Shown here one piece after another: positions 15,855-20,417 of a stretch of DNA of 29,089 nucleotides (the stretch's first letter is position 1; each line of letters opens with the position of its first letter). Position numbers and translations under genes: made by a program. Source of the stretch: a virus; IMG/VR virus record IMGVR_UViG_3300017735_000070, positions 1 through 29,089 of that record; one strand, written 5' to 3'. The notes under the pieces were generated by a model. That model saw only the letters and a program-made list of their open reading frames with translations, had not been told where the DNA came from and did not search any database.

Positions 15855-15868
15855 CAATGCACAAACTA
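15855..15868 (-). promoter_or_regulatory. Late promoter-like motif, copy b (portal block)
   Basis: Minus strand reads TAGTTTGTGCATTG. It overlaps the stop codon of the large terminase and precedes the MCFG/portal genes by about 50 bases. Confidence 0.55.
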
Positions 15869-17386
15869 CATTCTTGCCCAAAACCCCTGTCTCTTAGGGC
15901 GTGACTGCTTAGAAAAGACATCAAAGCTACGCTTTGCAACGGATACCCTTGCAGGTTTTTGGGTATTCATAAGCGCTCGACCCTCACCTGCACCTAAGAA
16001 AAGATACTGTGCAGCATCGTGAACGTGGCTAAACATATTCTTGTCTGGCTTATCTGCGTATCTTTCACCAGAGACTTCCATGCGCTTATAGGCATAGCCG
16101 CCCTCAAAGCCTTTGATTAGCTGTGGGCATCTACGATCAATTAATAAAGCAGGTTTACCTTCGACCATCTTAGTCAATTGGGAGGAGACTGACTCAAGCC
16201 GAAGGTCAACGGAGTTGGAAGGCGCAGGGAACGCCCTCAAACCTGCTCCGCGCAAGATGTGAAAGGGAGTAGACTCATCAGTCTGTGCGCGGAAATCACC
16301 TGCGGGATCGCCATAGATTATTACCTCTGACGCTGCCGCGAATCTTATAGCTAGCTCATTTCTAAGAACTTCGGCAAAACGCACGATGCCCATGTCTACG
16401 GCTACAATTTCGGATTGAATGAACCATCGCCCTCGAACCTTTTGCCCAAGCACTGCCGCAGGGGTCAAGCCAAAGTCCACGCCAACATAAACTGGGGAAT
16501 TTGCTGCTACTGGTATTTCTTCTTTTGCTATGTGTACTTCTGCTGCAAACATCGGGTAAACAGGTTTCCCATCTTGGATGTGGCCCAAGCGGTTCATTAC
16601 ATACACATCTATCCATGATTTAGTCTTACCCCTTATTAGATTGGAATAATAACTCTTGAGCATATTCTTTGTGTTCTCGGCTTTGGGGTTTGGCTCATAG
16701 TCTTCTACCTCGCCCTCTTCACCTTTCTTTTCAACCATGCCGCAGGGTTGGGTATAGAAAGACCAGTTGTCTGGCTTAACCAACATCTTAGCTTGCTCAC
16801 GCGGTATATGATCTGGGACTGGAACTTCACCTGCCATAATCGGCCACCAGTGATCTTCCTCAGGCGCGTTGGTATCGGCAATGACACCAGTCCAAGTAGG
16901 GCCACCATCACGCATAGAAGGAAAACGCCCAACACGCATAGTACAGGCGTCAATAATACTCTTCGCAATTTCTCTAGCCTCATTAATCCAAACGCCAGTT
17001 AGCTCTAAAGATAGCAGTTTCTTTACATCTTCGGGGCGGTCTAAAGCTAAGAAGATAACCTCAAGATCAATGTCGCCCTTCTTAATGTGATGCGTATATG
17101 GCACTGACCAAGTAAACTTACCCCAGTCTGATTCTGGAAACCAGTCAAGCCATGTCTTGATGGTGGTGGTTCTAAGTTGGGGATTGGTATTACGAATGAT
17201 TGCCCATCGGCTTTTGCGGATTCCATCTGGCCCTTTGCCCTGTTGGATTGCGCGGCGAAACACTTCTACACAACAGCCAACGGACTTGCCAGAACCGACT
17301 GGCCCTCTTATGCCACGAAAGAATGTATCGTCCTTCATAAATACTTTTAGGACTTCTCCATCTGGCTTGTACTTGAAGTCTATCAT
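15866..17386 (-). CDS. terL: Terminase large subunit
   Basis: A 506-residue packaging motor. The ATPase domain has Walker A GPVGSGKS (28-35), an adenine/R-loop region WAIIRNTNPQLRTTTIKTWL (61-80) and a Walker B with catalytic Glu in GVWINEARE (131-139), where the usual Asp is Asn. The RNase H-fold nuclease domain has three likely metal Asp residues: D304 in YVGVDFG, D360 in IIYGDPAGDF and D457 in HVHDAAQYLF. It cuts and pumps DNA through the portal. The start ATG overlaps the previous stop (ATGA). The matching small subunit is not adjacent: about 2.6 kb of small genes lies between. Confidence 0.95.
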   Translation of the reverse strand: MIDFKYKPDGEVLKVFMKDDTFFRGIRGPVGSGKSVGCCVEVFRRAIQQGKGPDGIRKSRWAIIRNTNPQLRTTTIKTWLDWFPESDWGKFTWSVPYTHHIKKGDIDLEVIFLALDRPEDVKKLLSLELTGVWINEAREIAKSIIDACTMRVGRFPSMRDGGPTWTGVIADTNAPEEDHWWPIMAGEVPVPDHIPREQAKMLVKPDNWSFYTQPCGMVEKKGEEGEVEDYEPNPKAENTKNMLKSYYSNLIRGKTKSWIDVYVMNRLGHIQDGKPVYPMFAAEVHIAKEEIPVAANSPVYVGVDFGLTPAAVLGQKVRGRWFIQSEIVAVDMGIVRFAEVLRNELAIRFAAASEVIIYGDPAGDFRAQTDESTPFHILRGAGLRAFPAPSNSVDLRLESVSSQLTKMVEGKPALLIDRRCPQLIKGFEGGYAYKRMEVSGERYADKPDKNMFSHVHDAAQYLFLGAGEGRALMNTQKPARVSVAKRSFDVFSKQSRPKRQGFWARM

Positions 17387-17583
17387 CTAAGCCCTTTGTT
17401 AACTCCAAAGCGGATCATATCTTCAACCACCTCTGGCGCAATGCTGTCAATGAGCTTGTCGCACTCATGGTCTGTAACAAAGTGCTGTCCGAACTTTGCA
17501 ATGACACTTGATAGATGAACCTTGCGAACAATGCCGCGCAGCATATCGCGGTCTTGTTGAGTAATCGTAGAAGTAAAACTCAC
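17383..17583 (-). CDS. Small protein upstream of terL, unknown
   Basis: A 66-residue protein starting at GTG 17583, which overlaps the preceding stop as GTGA. The sequence has MLRGIVRKVHLSSVIAKFGQ and ends EVVEDMIRFGVNKGLR. It is not Lys-rich like its upstream neighbours. The pattern of a short helical protein translated just before terL, with overlapping stops and starts at both ends, suggests a packaging accessory, but no domain is recognised. GTG start choice is supported by the overlap and by lack of another start. Confidence 0.7.
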   Translation of the reverse strand: MSFTSTITQQDRDMLRGIVRKVHLSSVIAKFGQHFVTDHECDKLIDSIAPEVVEDMIRFGVNKGLR

Positions 17584-17816
17584 GTTCTGTACTTCCTTAC
17601 TTTATCAGCAATTGCTTTCGGTTGAGCCACAAACTGCTTGCCCGAAGCCTTGCCCTTTCGTTTAGCTCTGGTTGTAGCTGCATATTCAGAATCACTAAGA
17701 GCAGCGATAGCTTTAGAAGGAAGGTAACGCTCACCAGTCTCACTAGACTTTTTGCCAGACTTGGTGCGCCACTTCTGCTTGCCCCAGTTCATTAATGATT
17801 TCTGAGAAGCTTTCAC
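17580..17816 (-). CDS. Small basic protein, DUF5872-like
   Basis: A 78-residue, strongly basic protein: MKASQKSLMNWGKQKWRTKS then GKKSSETGERYLPSKAIAAL, YAATTRAKRKGKASGKQFVA and a closing KAIADKVRKYR. I recall this pattern (W.KQ.WRTKSGK...TGERYLP..AI..L) as a family of unknown function common in phages, probably DUF5872. The start is GTG at 17816, overlapping the stop of the preceding 55-aa gene, with GGGGGAT upstream. A nucleic-acid-binding role is plausible from charge only. Confidence 0.75.
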   Translation of the reverse strand: MKASQKSLMNWGKQKWRTKSGKKSSETGERYLPSKAIAALSDSEYAATTRAKRKGKASGKQFVAQPKAIADKVRKYRT

Positions 17817-17980
17817 CTATATCCCCCACCTGCTGCTTTGTATCGCTTGGCTAAGAGTTGAGCCTTACGCGCAGACCATTTACCTGCCGCAGTGCCTTGA
17901 ACATTTGCGGCCTTTATTCTGTTGAACAAAGACTTCCGCATCTTGGGCTTGGTATAATTACCTGCTTCATTTACTGCCAT
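17813..17980 (-). CDS. Small basic phage protein (KAAGGGY type), 55 aa
   Basis: A 55-residue protein starting ATG 17980: it opens MAVNEAGNYTKPKMRKSLFN, has GKWSARKAQLLAKRYKAAGG in the second half and ends GGYR. I recognise the pattern T.P..R..LF..IKA...G..G.WSARKAQ.LAK.YKA.GGGY from other phage genomes, where it is hypothetical. It is basic, with likely helices. Its start lies within the end of the preceding 35-aa gene and its stop overlaps the next GTG, so it is firmly embedded in the operon. Confidence 0.75.
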   Translation of the reverse strand: MAVNEAGNYTKPKMRKSLFNRIKAANVQGTAAGKWSARKAQLLAKRYKAAGGGYR

Positions 17981-18074
17981 TCTTCACACTCTTGTTCTTT
18001 TTACGAGCGTAAGCCTTTGCAGCTTTCTTTCCCTCTTTGCTGTAGGAGAAAGTCTTTCCACCAACTTTAGGCAT
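17967..18074 (-). CDS. Very small basic phage protein (MPKVGGK type), 35 aa
   Basis: A 35-residue peptide starting ATG 18074 with AAAGGAAG upstream: MPKVGGKTFSYSKEGKKAAK, then AYARKKNKSVKNGSK. Short peptides with the MPKVGGKKF.Y...GK.AAK.YAKK pattern are widespread in phages next to terminase or portal genes; function unknown. Pfam naming is uncertain. Its start overlaps the preceding gene by eight bases and its end overlaps the next one. The charge (about one third Lys/Arg) hints at DNA or RNA contact. Confidence 0.75.
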   Translation of the reverse strand: MPKVGGKTFSYSKEGKKAAKAYARKKNKSVKNGSK

Positions 18075-18303
18075 TTTTCTTCTTCCTTTTGTTTTTAGGC
18101 GCAACCTTCGATTCATCAATGTCAGGCGTAGAAGGGTTGTCAGCCTTGTACGATCCCTTGGTTGTTCGCGCTCTCACTGGCTCTGGCCCTTCGACTAAAC
18201 GCTTGGCATCAGCCATGCGTGTCTTGCCAGTGTAATGAATCCCTGCAATCGTATGCGTTTCGCCAGTCCACACCTCTTCAGTGTGCGCAATGTAAAAAGC
18301 CAT
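18067..18303 (-). CDS. Small protein, unknown, basic tail
   Basis: A 78-residue protein beginning MAFYIAHTEEVWTGETHTIA with GIHYTGKTRMADAKRLVEGP in the middle. The N-terminal half looks like a small beta fold; the C-terminus is disordered and Lys-rich (VAPKNKRKKKNA). No family is assigned with confidence. It starts in a TAATG overlap with the upstream gene and its end overlaps the 35-aa gene, so translation is coupled throughout this cluster. Confidence 0.7.
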   Translation of the reverse strand: MAFYIAHTEEVWTGETHTIAGIHYTGKTRMADAKRLVEGPEPVRARTTKGSYKADNPSTPDIDESKVAPKNKRKKKNA

Positions 18304-18578
18304 TATTCCTCCCTAGCTCCGCTCTTAAGCATCTGCTCTTCCATCTTCTTAACTCGCTTTAGCAACGAATGATGACGAGCAGTTATAACACGCTGACCAG
18401 ACTTCTCAGCTTCGCGCATATCTTCTGCATAATCCTTGCCGCGAAGCAAAGTCCTTAGTTTATTCTTAGCTCTGTTAATAAGCTTGTTGTTAATATCCTT
18501 CTCAATATTATCAACAGCTTTATCTAATATCTCATACCGATACTGAAAACGCTTTCTTGGGTTCTGTGGATTAGGCAT
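18303..18578 (-). CDS. Small helical basic protein, unknown
   Basis: A 91-residue protein, mostly helical and rich in Lys, Arg and Glu (YRYEILDKAVDNIEKDINNK; LRTLLRGKDYAEDMREAEKS; HSLLKRVKKMEEQMLKSG). Heptad-like spacing at the C-terminus suggests a coiled coil. No enzyme motif is visible and I do not recognise the family. Its start shares the TGATG with the previous gene. The charge pattern fits the rest of this Lys/Arg-rich cluster between the terminase genes. Confidence 0.7.
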   Translation of the reverse strand: MPNPQNPRKRFQYRYEILDKAVDNIEKDINNKLINRAKNKLRTLLRGKDYAEDMREAEKSGQRVITARHHSLLKRVKKMEEQMLKSGAREE

Positions 18579-18760
18579 CAGTATTTACTTTTTAGCGCTG
18601 TAAGCATTGAAGACTGCATCGCGCCGCCGCTCGGCTTTGGAACATCCTTCATCTTAGGCTTGCTTCTTTTAATCTTGCTTTGAAGCAAAGAAGGAAGAGG
18701 GCCATAATCGACCTTCATTTCTTTATAATAGTCTTCTGCGCTTTTACCACCTGCACACAT
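18578..18760 (-). CDS. Small protein (MCAGGKS type), unknown
   Basis: A 60-residue protein starting MCAGGKSAEDYYKEMKVDYG and ending SSMLTALKSKY. The Met-Cys-(Ala/Phe)-Gly opening recalls the MCFG protein before portal (15577-15804), and short MC.GG proteins are common around phage head genes; this likeness is only at the first residues. The centre has a Pro/Lys-rich disordered stretch. It starts two bases after the HNH gene ends and overlaps the next start by one base. Function unknown. Confidence 0.65.
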   Translation of the reverse strand: MCAGGKSAEDYYKEMKVDYGPLPSLLQSKIKRSKPKMKDVPKPSGGAMQSSMLTALKSKY

Positions 18761-18762
18761 AA

Positions 18763-19029
18763 CTAAGCCTTTCCTGCTTTAGCGTTCCTTTTAATAGACC
18801 GATTAGCCGCCCTAGCTATAGAACGCAAATTCTTAGAAGAGTTGTCTTGCGGATTGCCGTTCTTGTGATCTACATCCTTGCCATCATTCCGCTTGGCCTT
18901 GCCAGACTTCTCTAACTTATAACGAGCCTTCTTCCTTGCCCTGTTAGCCGCCATCCGTTTAGGCGACTTGTCGTACTTGCCCTCGCCAGACATAGAATAA
19001 TCACGGACATAATTCTTACTACTAGGCAT
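18763..19029 (-). CDS. HNH-type small nuclease-like protein
   Basis: An 88-residue basic protein with DVDHKNGNPQDNSSKNLRSI (52-71), the HNH signature: D-x-D-H followed by N-x-x-x-NLR, where His55 would be the general base, and then RAANRSIKR. Phage HNH proteins near terminase genes help genome packaging or end cleavage in HK97-like phages (gp74), so a packaging role is possible here. The N-terminal 45 residues are Lys/Arg-rich, fitting DNA contact. It is shorter than homing HNH enzymes and lies inside an overlapping operon, so it looks like a resident gene rather than an invader. Confidence 0.8.
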   Translation of the reverse strand: MPSSKNYVRDYSMSGEGKYDKSPKRMAANRARKKARYKLEKSGKAKRNDGKDVDHKNGNPQDNSSKNLRSIARAANRSIKRNAKAGKA

Positions 19030-19298
19030 TATGACTTCTTATGCCTCTTTGCAAAGTTACGAGCCGCTTCCACAGAGCCAAAGCCCCACTTCTTTAATGC
19101 CAATGCCTTTCGAGTCGGGCGACCCTTCTCATCTTTCATCGGCCCCTTCATTCCTGCAAACCGAGCAGCAAAAGAAACACGACGAGGATTCGTACCACTG
19201 CTTAACTGACGCTTTAAGTTAGCACCCTCAGTACGCTTAAAATGAGCGCGACCCGCAGCAGTCAAGCCACCAGTCTTGCTTTTGTGTTCCTTCCTCAC
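19029..19298 (-). CDS. Small basic protein, DUF6321-like
   Basis: An 89-residue basic protein: KTGGLTAAGRAHFKRTEGAN at residues 8-27, FAARFAGMKGPMKDEKGRPT in the middle, then RKALALKKWGFG. This order (GLT..GR..FK...GANLK ... F.ARF.GMKGPMKDEKGRPTR.ALAL..WG) I recall as DUF6321, found in phages and bacteria with no proven function. The start is GTG 19298, forming GTGA with the previous stop, with an AAGAGG site. Conservation of GPMKD-KGRPTR suggests a structural or nucleic-acid contact motif. Confidence 0.8.
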   Translation of the reverse strand: MRKEHKSKTGGLTAAGRAHFKRTEGANLKRQLSSGTNPRRVSFAARFAGMKGPMKDEKGRPTRKALALKKWGFGSVEAARNFAKRHKKS

Positions 19299-19690
19299 AT
19301 CTGCCTCTTCTTAGCCATAGAGAGCAAAGACTGATCCTTGAGAGGCTTGCTAGGAGAGTACATACCGCCGCCGCCTTTGCCGCTATACCTTGCTTTTGGT
19401 TTGTTGATTTTTTTGTCAAACTTTACTTCGCCTCTAGCATCGCGCAGCAAAGTCCGAGCATGTTTAACTTCACGCTTTAGCTCTTGAACCTTTTCTTTGT
19501 TTGACAGCTTTTCATAACTTCCATCCTCAGAAAAAGAATAAGTCTTAACATTTTTTCCGCTACCCTTCAGCTTACTAATTTCTTTGCTTATCTGGCGAAG
19601 CACAGACTTCAAACCTTTAATCTGCTCTTTAGGGCCGCCCCTTAAACGACGAGTCTCATTGTCTTCAGTAATGGCCGCTGTGCCTTCCAT
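19295..19690 (-). CDS. Lysine-rich coiled protein, unknown
   Basis: A 131-residue protein, the largest of the small-gene cluster. The first two thirds are helical and charged (LRQISKEISKLKGSGKNVKT; KEKVQELKREVKHARTLLRD). The end has a Gly-rich loop YSGKGGGGMYSPSKP and SLLSMAKKRQM. I do not recognise a domain. It starts four bases after the 35-aa peptide, with an AAGGAA site inside that peptide's 3' end. It may bind nucleic acid or a virion partner; this is inferred from charge only. Confidence 0.65.
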   Translation of the reverse strand: MEGTAAITEDNETRRLRGGPKEQIKGLKSVLRQISKEISKLKGSGKNVKTYSFSEDGSYEKLSNKEKVQELKREVKHARTLLRDARGEVKFDKKINKPKARYSGKGGGGMYSPSKPLKDQSLLSMAKKRQM

Positions 19691-19694
19691 GAAC

Positions 19695-19802
19695 TTATTC
19701 CTTCTTCTTCCTTAAGTATCCACCACTCTTGAGAGCAGCCTTGGCAACAGTCATGTCAGCCCTATCCGGCTGCTTCTCTGGGGTGCGATCAAATCTACTC
19801 AT
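19695..19802 (-). CDS. Very small protein, 35 aa, first of terS-terL cluster
   Basis: A 35-residue frame starting ATG 19802 (MSRFDRTPEKQPDRADMTVA, then KAALKSGGYLRKKKE) preceded by AAGG at a suitable distance. The pattern TP...P..AD...A.AALKSGGYLRKK looks like a real conserved phage peptide, with a basic end like its neighbours. The stop lies four bases before the next ATG. It is the first gene after the late-promoter-like motif at 19836, 33 bases upstream. Confidence 0.6.
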   Translation of the reverse strand: MSRFDRTPEKQPDRADMTVAKAALKSGGYLRKKKE

Positions 19803-19987: not shown

Positions 19988-20365
19988 TCAACCAAGGTCA
20001 ATAGATACACGGATATCACCTGCCACCTGCACTTGAGAACGGTCAATAGGTTTATACCCTGCACGATCTAGCAAATCCTTACTGGCTTCCAACTGGACAT
20101 ACTCAGACTTAGCACTTGTTGCTAACCTTCTCACTGTTCCTGCTGCCAATGTAGCACTCAATCCAAACTCTTCATTCATCCTCTGCATCAAGTACTGTTG
20201 CACATGAGGCAACTTCATTGTCTTGCAAGCAGTCACTCTTCCAGACTCGCCCGAACTGTATCCAGCAATCTCAGCAGCTTCCCTAATGGTGCATCCTCTT
20301 GCTACGATGGTGTCAACAAGTGCGGTCTGTTTATCAGTCAGCTTCTTAGTTGAAATATCATTCAT
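19988..20365 (-). CDS. terS: Terminase small subunit
   Basis: A 125-residue protein from ATG 20365; the frame opens further upstream to 20410, but that part is translation of the G-rich leader and the ATG has a GGAAGG site. It carries an N-terminal helix-turn-helix region (LTDKQTALVDTIVARGCTIR, then EAAEIAGYSSGESGRV), typical of small terminases that bind the packaging site, then a helical oligomerisation segment and a C-terminal YVQLEASKDLLDRAGYKP of the kind seen in this family. It recognises phage DNA and regulates the large subunit. It is the first gene of the leftward late region and faces the control region. Confidence 0.85.
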   Translation of the reverse strand: MNDISTKKLTDKQTALVDTIVARGCTIREAAEIAGYSSGESGRVTACKTMKLPHVQQYLMQRMNEEFGLSATLAAGTVRRLATSAKSEYVQLEASKDLLDRAGYKPIDRSQVQVAGDIRVSIDLG

Positions 20366-20383
20366 TGTTTGATCCTTCCGTTG

Positions 20384-20408
20384 CCCCCCCTCTCCCTCTC
20401 TCCCCCCC
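20384..20408 (-). other. G-rich purine tract in terS leader
   Basis: On the minus strand a 25-base homopurine run begins with seven G, ends with seven G and has AGAGAGGGAGA between. It could form a G-quadruplex or triplex and sits about 18 bases upstream of the terS ATG. Confidence 0.6.
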
Positions 20409-20417
20409 ATCTAAGCC
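20402..20417 (-). repeat. Direct repeat upstream of terS
   Basis: Minus strand GGCTTAGATGGGGGGG, partner of the copy at 19933-19948 on the far side of terS. Candidates are a small-terminase binding site or a promoter-linked element. Confidence 0.5.

Follow-up and report, generated by a model that had tools for sequence, protein, structure and literature searches.

Exchangeable cassettes of small, mostly basic genes between terS and terL in a lineage of marine podoviruses

In cyanomyoviruses, which are T4-like myoviruses, the g15–g18 interval (gp16–gp17) is a known hyperplastic region in which variable genes lie between or next to the terminase genes terS and terL (Millard 2009; Sullivan 2010, PMC3037559; PMC2984593). 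Its cargo is largely made up of host-type metabolic genes, among them zwf, gnd, petE and PTOX (PMC3037559, PMC2984593), its cassettes have been linked to endonucleases (PMC3037559), and it also includes a DUF6321 protein (T4-GC119). Here, we describe an island of small genes at the same junction in the IMG/VR virus record IMGVR_UViG_3300017735_000070, whose 29,089 bases we call the window and which encodes a portal, a capsid and tubular tail proteins of the podovirus kind, with no T4-like structural module. An accessory region at terS–terL is known from cyanomyoviruses; new is a podovirus variant with different cargo. In this lineage of marine podoviruses, cassettes at the terS–terL junction are swapped as gene units, and their commonest core consists of the near-constant g3 and g11 plus the pair g9–g10. 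We read the island, with a probability of roughly 0.5, as a site for late-expressed cassettes that encode small, mostly basic, putative nucleic-acid-binding proteins, which would act during packaging or on the DNA of the virion.

The cyanomyovirus region differs further in that its DUF6321 mostly forms the C-terminal end of a longer protein and in that the g9–g10 pair was not seen there. Other features of the island are reminiscent of three further systems. The T4 proteins IPI, IPII and IPIII are small exchangeable head proteins, and two cyanomyovirus DUF6321 proteins carry T4-type leaders; the podovirus genes, in contrast, are leaderless, lie at terS–terL and encode only putative virion proteins. 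DUF5872 (PF19197), found in Alphaproteobacteria and algal giant viruses, has halves that correspond to g9 and g10 in the same order, but the phage halves are usually separate genes, and those of SAR11 are fused in reverse order. Packaging HNH proteins of the HK97 gp74 type are encoded beside the terminase genes, and the HNH gene of the window (g4) likewise lies near them; unlike the HK97 gp74 type, it is not a required packaging factor here, since only 5/44 islands have it.

A preliminary description of this DNA had placed eleven small genes between terS and terL. The open reading frames g1–g11, of 35–131 amino acids (aa), indeed fill 19802–17383 on the minus strand; a simple gene caller based on codon usage agreed on these genes but chose a shorter start for g10. 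The family names given then also hold, DUF5872 corresponding to g9 and g10 as its halves.

19988..20410, minus strand: terS, terminase small subunit (phrog_2538, E 3e-15)
19695..19802, minus strand: g1, 35 aa, basic, accessory (16/44 complete islands)
19295..19690, minus strand: g2, 131 aa, basic, accessory (cluster in 16/44 islands)
19029..19298, minus strand: g3, DUF6321 protein, 89 aa, core (PF19846, E 5e-22; 40/44 islands)
18763..19029, minus strand: g4, small HNH_3 protein, 88 aa, accessory (PF13392, 28.1 bits; 5/44 islands)
18578..18760, minus strand: g5, 60 aa, common (33/44 islands)
18303..18578, minus strand: g6, 91 aa, accessory (24/44 islands)
18067..18303, minus strand: g7, 78 aa, common (30/44 islands)
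17967..18074, minus strand: g8, 35 aa MPKVGGK protein, accessory (phrog_33179, E 0.002; 4/44 islands)
17813..17980, minus strand: g9, 55 aa, assigned as N-terminal half of DUF5872 (KAAGGGY), core pair (phrog_17747, E 7e-27)
17580..17816, minus strand: g10, 78 aa, assigned as C-terminal half of DUF5872, core pair (phrog_14910, E 7e-35)
17383..17583, minus strand: g11, 66 aa neutral protein, 4 nt overlap with terL (42/44 islands; ratio of nonsynonymous to synonymous substitutions, dN/dS, 0.15)
15866..17386, minus strand: terL, terminase large subunit (phrog_2, E 6e-18)

From g1 to terL, 9/11 junctions overlap by 1–14 nt, and the g1–g2 and g4–g5 gaps measure 2–4 nt. The coupling proposed earlier is therefore seen among the island genes and to terL but does not extend to terS, which lies 185 nt from g1. 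For g8, the start is most likely the ATG at 18074 (35 aa) rather than an upstream TTG. Among GenBank phages, g7 had no match; no repeats >20 bp and no tRNA were found in the window.

How general is this arrangement? Scanning IMG/VR with TerL yielded 80 relatives at 83–100% identity, and all 44 of the 44 loci with both terS and terL (the window and the cultured pelagiphage EXVC031P Hodr, whose TerL is 65% identical to that of the window, are counted) contain an island, of 1,050–2,733 bp and 5–12 genes. The g9/g10 genes occur in 28 of them; the other counts stand in the lines above. In L184, L201 and L202, the module g3-(g9g10) sits between terL and portal instead. The terminase genes lie close together in the more distant relatives Pmp11 (0 bp) and BcepC6B (132 bp), which is in line with the earlier remark that they are usually side by side and makes the island look derived.

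We compared breakpoints between the window and three relatives whose TerL is 97.4–99.6% identical (L003, L004 and L006). The flanking 5.5 kb are co-linear and the island is a patchwork: the g9–g10 pair is missing from L003 and L004, and g2 is absent from L003 and L006, with a divergent gene in L004. Homology edges fall ≤12 nt from a gene border in 15 of 17 cases versus 12% expected (binomial P 3e-12); as whole-gene gain or loss necessarily leaves edges at borders, this shows exchange of units and not its mechanism. Most cassette genes come and go and thus do not belong to the fixed equipment of the packaging motor. Gene-by-gene turnover at 97–99.6% TerL identity would also be expected if the junction were merely a tolerated insertion hotspot in the late operon, with proteins that play no part in packaging or in the virion but act in the infected cell in host take-over, counter-defence or stress relief. 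The zwf, gnd, petE and PTOX cargo of the cyanomyovirus interval (PMC3037559, PMC2984593) and the chromosomal g9–g10 genes of bacteria point the same way. We nevertheless consider a mere hotspot rather unlikely: the core families, instead of being freely mobile, turn up again and again next to head genes in several types of phage, the island proteins have a strong charge bias, and PADLOC defence models gave no convincing match, only weak HNH and SIR2 matches at E 1e-3 or worse.

Could the junction instead reflect selfish accumulation, with HNH homing endonucleases driving insertion and exchange and most cargo being near-neutral? The HNH gene in the window island and the endonuclease-linked cassettes of the cyanomyoviruses (PMC3037559) would fit such a scenario, but it is highly improbable, given that HNH occurs in so few islands and that, as far as the core is concerned, dN/dS is 0.10–0.17 and gene order is kept. 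More generally, dN/dS is <0.5 for every island gene with usable comparisons (a single pair each for g2, g4 and g8), reflecting purifying selection.

The isoelectric point (pI) is >9.5 for 10/11 island genes (9.6–11.9) versus 5/26 other window genes (Fisher P 8e-5). The earlier characterization of the genes as mostly Lys/Arg-rich is borne out by these ten; g11, adjoining terL, is neutral (pI 6.8). The product of g3 passes the curated DUF6321 cut-off (PF19846; 78.7 bits vs 28.5) and that of g4 the HNH_3 cut-off (PF13392; 28.1 bits vs 24.8). Across unrelated phages, g9 has 26 invariant columns; g10 has 34, and those of both include W, Y and G. As g3 also has many invariant residues, the three appear to be specific folded proteins rather than loose peptides. 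The earlier idea of a kit of DNA-condensing peptides is not supported, as g3, g9 and g10 do not make up a protamine-like set, and protamine-like junk peptides were rejected for the core on its high conservation. AlphaFold (AF2) predicts four helices for g3 (predicted local distance difference test, pLDDT, 90) and a helical natural g9–g10 fusion (pLDDT 82). PDB sequence searches with g3, g9 and g10 returned nothing usable; the low E-values of g10 against Cake proteins span just 12 residues. A misalignment hinted at homology between g9 and g10, which was rejected with hhalign (probability 0.1).

Independent scans with the g9 and g10 families revealed a strict pairing: in evaluable loci on phage contigs, g9 lies upstream of g10 on the same strand within 1.5 kb in 41/41 cases, and g10 lies downstream of g9 in 43/43. 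In Hodr, L179, L184, L201 and L202, the two are fused. In a genome collection, g9 is adjacent or fused in 79/80 g10 loci, the exception ending at a contig edge. Sphingomonas, Methylobacterium and Alsobacter (Alphaproteobacteria) encode a single g9–g10 protein, and cellular g9–g10 often features a C-terminal Rho_N-like stretch; SAR11 chromosomes carry one gene in the reversed order g10–g9. Searched singly, neither g9 nor g10 matched the DUF5872 profile (PF19197) at E up to 1. Full-length fusions do so in 2/4 tested bacterial cases (27.6–27.7 bits vs a cut-off of 27.5), and an Azospirillum homologue is annotated as DUF5872, suggesting that g9 and g10 are its two halves. The pairing and the fusions make g9 and g10 a single functional unit, a DUF5872 split in two. 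A g10 tree gave no direction for transfer between phage and cell; the alphaproteobacterial and SAR11 groups each form one clade, and SAR11 is placed among phage rows with weak support. Neither the pair rule nor the cellular relatives seem to have been described in the literature that we retrieved, in which a single paper names DUF5872 and none names DUF6321. Sea-water phages (pelagiphages, HMO-2011-type phages, cyanophages) commonly carry these core families, which have no assigned function. With the pair rule, the two fusion orders and the SAR11 operon, these unnamed small proteins become one testable unit.

A recognised head or packaging gene, as counted by recognisable queries only, lies within 10 kb on the same strand in 29/38 evaluable g9–g10 loci and on the opposite strand in none. 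The neighbours include terL of the window type, HMO-2011-type terS/terL and Zobellviridae-type terL, and the most frequent are phrog_371 capsid, phrog_1216 portal and phrog_2941 virion protein. The Zobellviridae phage MEP401 has the order g3-g9-g10-terL, identical to the window core, although its TerL does not match the window TerL at 1e-5. For DUF6321, the tie is looser, with a same-strand head gene on 27/50 contigs. The terminase profile phrog_2, run across 50 contigs, was too insensitive to classify contexts. At three loci, small basic families encoded singly elsewhere (the GLY family, the KYG...ANKG motif, g9 and DUF6321) are strung together in one protein (L413:2585-3703, L087:6667-7026 and L096:13537-15024).

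In the cyanomyoviruses P-HM2, S-SM1, S-SZBM1 and S-CAM7, we found DUF6321 between terS and terL. S-E7 and S-CAM3 have it a short way downstream of terS, and in ACG-2014f it lies just ahead of terL. T4 leaders direct proteins into the head and are cleaved after L/I-X-E (PMC9026906). The IPII/IPIII leader in the T4 record reads MKTYQEFIAEA; the N-terminus of S-SZBM1_192, MKTFKQYITEA, resembles it, as does that of S-CAM3 gp139, MKSFKDLRSDITEA, which stands immediately ahead of the DUF6321 domain. Both fit the head-protease rule and capsid-targeting leaders (PMC9026906). The two DUF6321 proteins with a leader ending in ITE/A are:

L095:4629-5126 and L414:3536-3817, cyanomyovirus DUF6321 proteins

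Elsewhere in the terS–terL interval of S-SZBM1, the 87 aa protein S-SZBM1_195 (L095:7378-7641), which has no DUF6321, shows the third highest emPAI (exponentially modified protein abundance index) in the virion table (PMC9146016).

How might the island proteins work? Their charge, the Rho_N-like tail of cellular g9–g10 and the histone-H1-like stretch on cellular DUF6321 suggest that they probably bind nucleic acid. Whether they act during packaging or on virion DNA is an even call, and their putative presence inside virions is a somewhat more tentative proposal. As their genes overlap, the proteins would be made together with terminase and would bind the phage DNA on its way to the packaging motor; at least DUF5872 and DUF6321 would ride on the DNA into the head, and the island would work like the T4 internal-protein set. 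The remaining genes would be exchangeable cargo and the HNH gene an occasional mobiliser. If virion entry is true, tailed phages would own a set of DNA-coating head proteins that is widespread and has had no name so far.

The packaging or virion-DNA role had already been suggested in the preliminary description, and the tie of these late-operon genes to packaging and head genes in several unrelated phage types speaks for it; no virion evidence was found, and several observations weigh against it. Appearance of the families in unrelated contexts, named at the time as an argument against such a role, is partly the case. The biochemical role of g9–g10 is not virion-specific, because SAR11 and other bacteria keep a chromosomal gene; the pair is also dispensable, as L003 and L004 do without it. 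No head gene was recognisable by our limited queries on 23/50 DUF6321 contigs, and the contexts in L245 and MaMV-DH01 are apparently unrelated to head genes. Podovirus g3 lacks a capsid-targeting leader with an L/I-X-E site, Rho_N scores fall under the Pfam cut-off, and PDB fold searches with the g3 and g9–g10 fusion models gave no match. The 30 proteins detected in S-SZBM1 virions do not include S-SZBM1_192 (PMC9146016), which is tempered by the ease with which small Lys/Arg-rich proteins are missed. As annotated, the DUF6321 protein of S-SM1 bears no structural label, though that virion was analysed.

What, then, does g9–g10 do in cells? In 23 SAR11 loci (L345, L377 and 21 more), the chromosomal g10–g9 fusion encodes 138–155 aa and lies near genes for short-chain dehydrogenases (SDR; 21 loci), TspO (16), DUF3833 (14), CMAS (12), FAD amine oxidase (11) and DUF1365 (11). 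By its neighbour gene types, this operon resembles the singlet-oxygen RpoE/ChrR regulon of Rhodobacter sphaeroides, which includes cfaS, putative cyclopropane fatty-acid genes and an SDR (PMC7074977). Such company would suit a DUF5872 that protects nucleic acid under light or oxidative stress, used by marine phages to shield DNA from sunlight in cell or virion. We regard this as improbable: no photolyase (PF00875, PF04244) was found in the 15 SAR11 genomes searched, the contexts in Sphingomonas, Methylobacterium and Azospirillum are unremarkable, and operon proximity is association only, and DUF1365 and DUF3833 are only presumed to equal specific RSP genes of R. sphaeroides. A motif search for an EcfG promoter ahead of the gene in Alphaproteobacteria gave one chance-like match and is weak, as it missed several Sphingomonas loci. 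More doubtful still is a combination of both ideas, in which g9–g10 would be a nucleic-acid-protecting protein common to phages, SAR11 and other bacteria that marine phages load on the genome at packaging, shielding virion DNA from sunlight, and the junction a place where chromatin-like head proteins are exchanged.

Of 299 genomes sampled across the phylum to which a SAR11 genome belongs, 3 carry a bacterial DUF6321, which forms the C-terminal part of a 204–212 aa protein with a net charge of +55 to +59 and a Lys/Ala-rich, histone-H1-like stretch, with a SET-domain gene beside or near it (L402–L404). As the three are apparently closely related, we count them as one observation. In a sample of 147 genomes from the SAR11 order, g9–g10 occurs as a fused gene in 3 and as separate neighbours in 2. 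In L329 and genome G116, g9 and g10 are separate and in phage order on SAR11 contigs; in L329, they lie next to phage-like genes, possibly a prophage.

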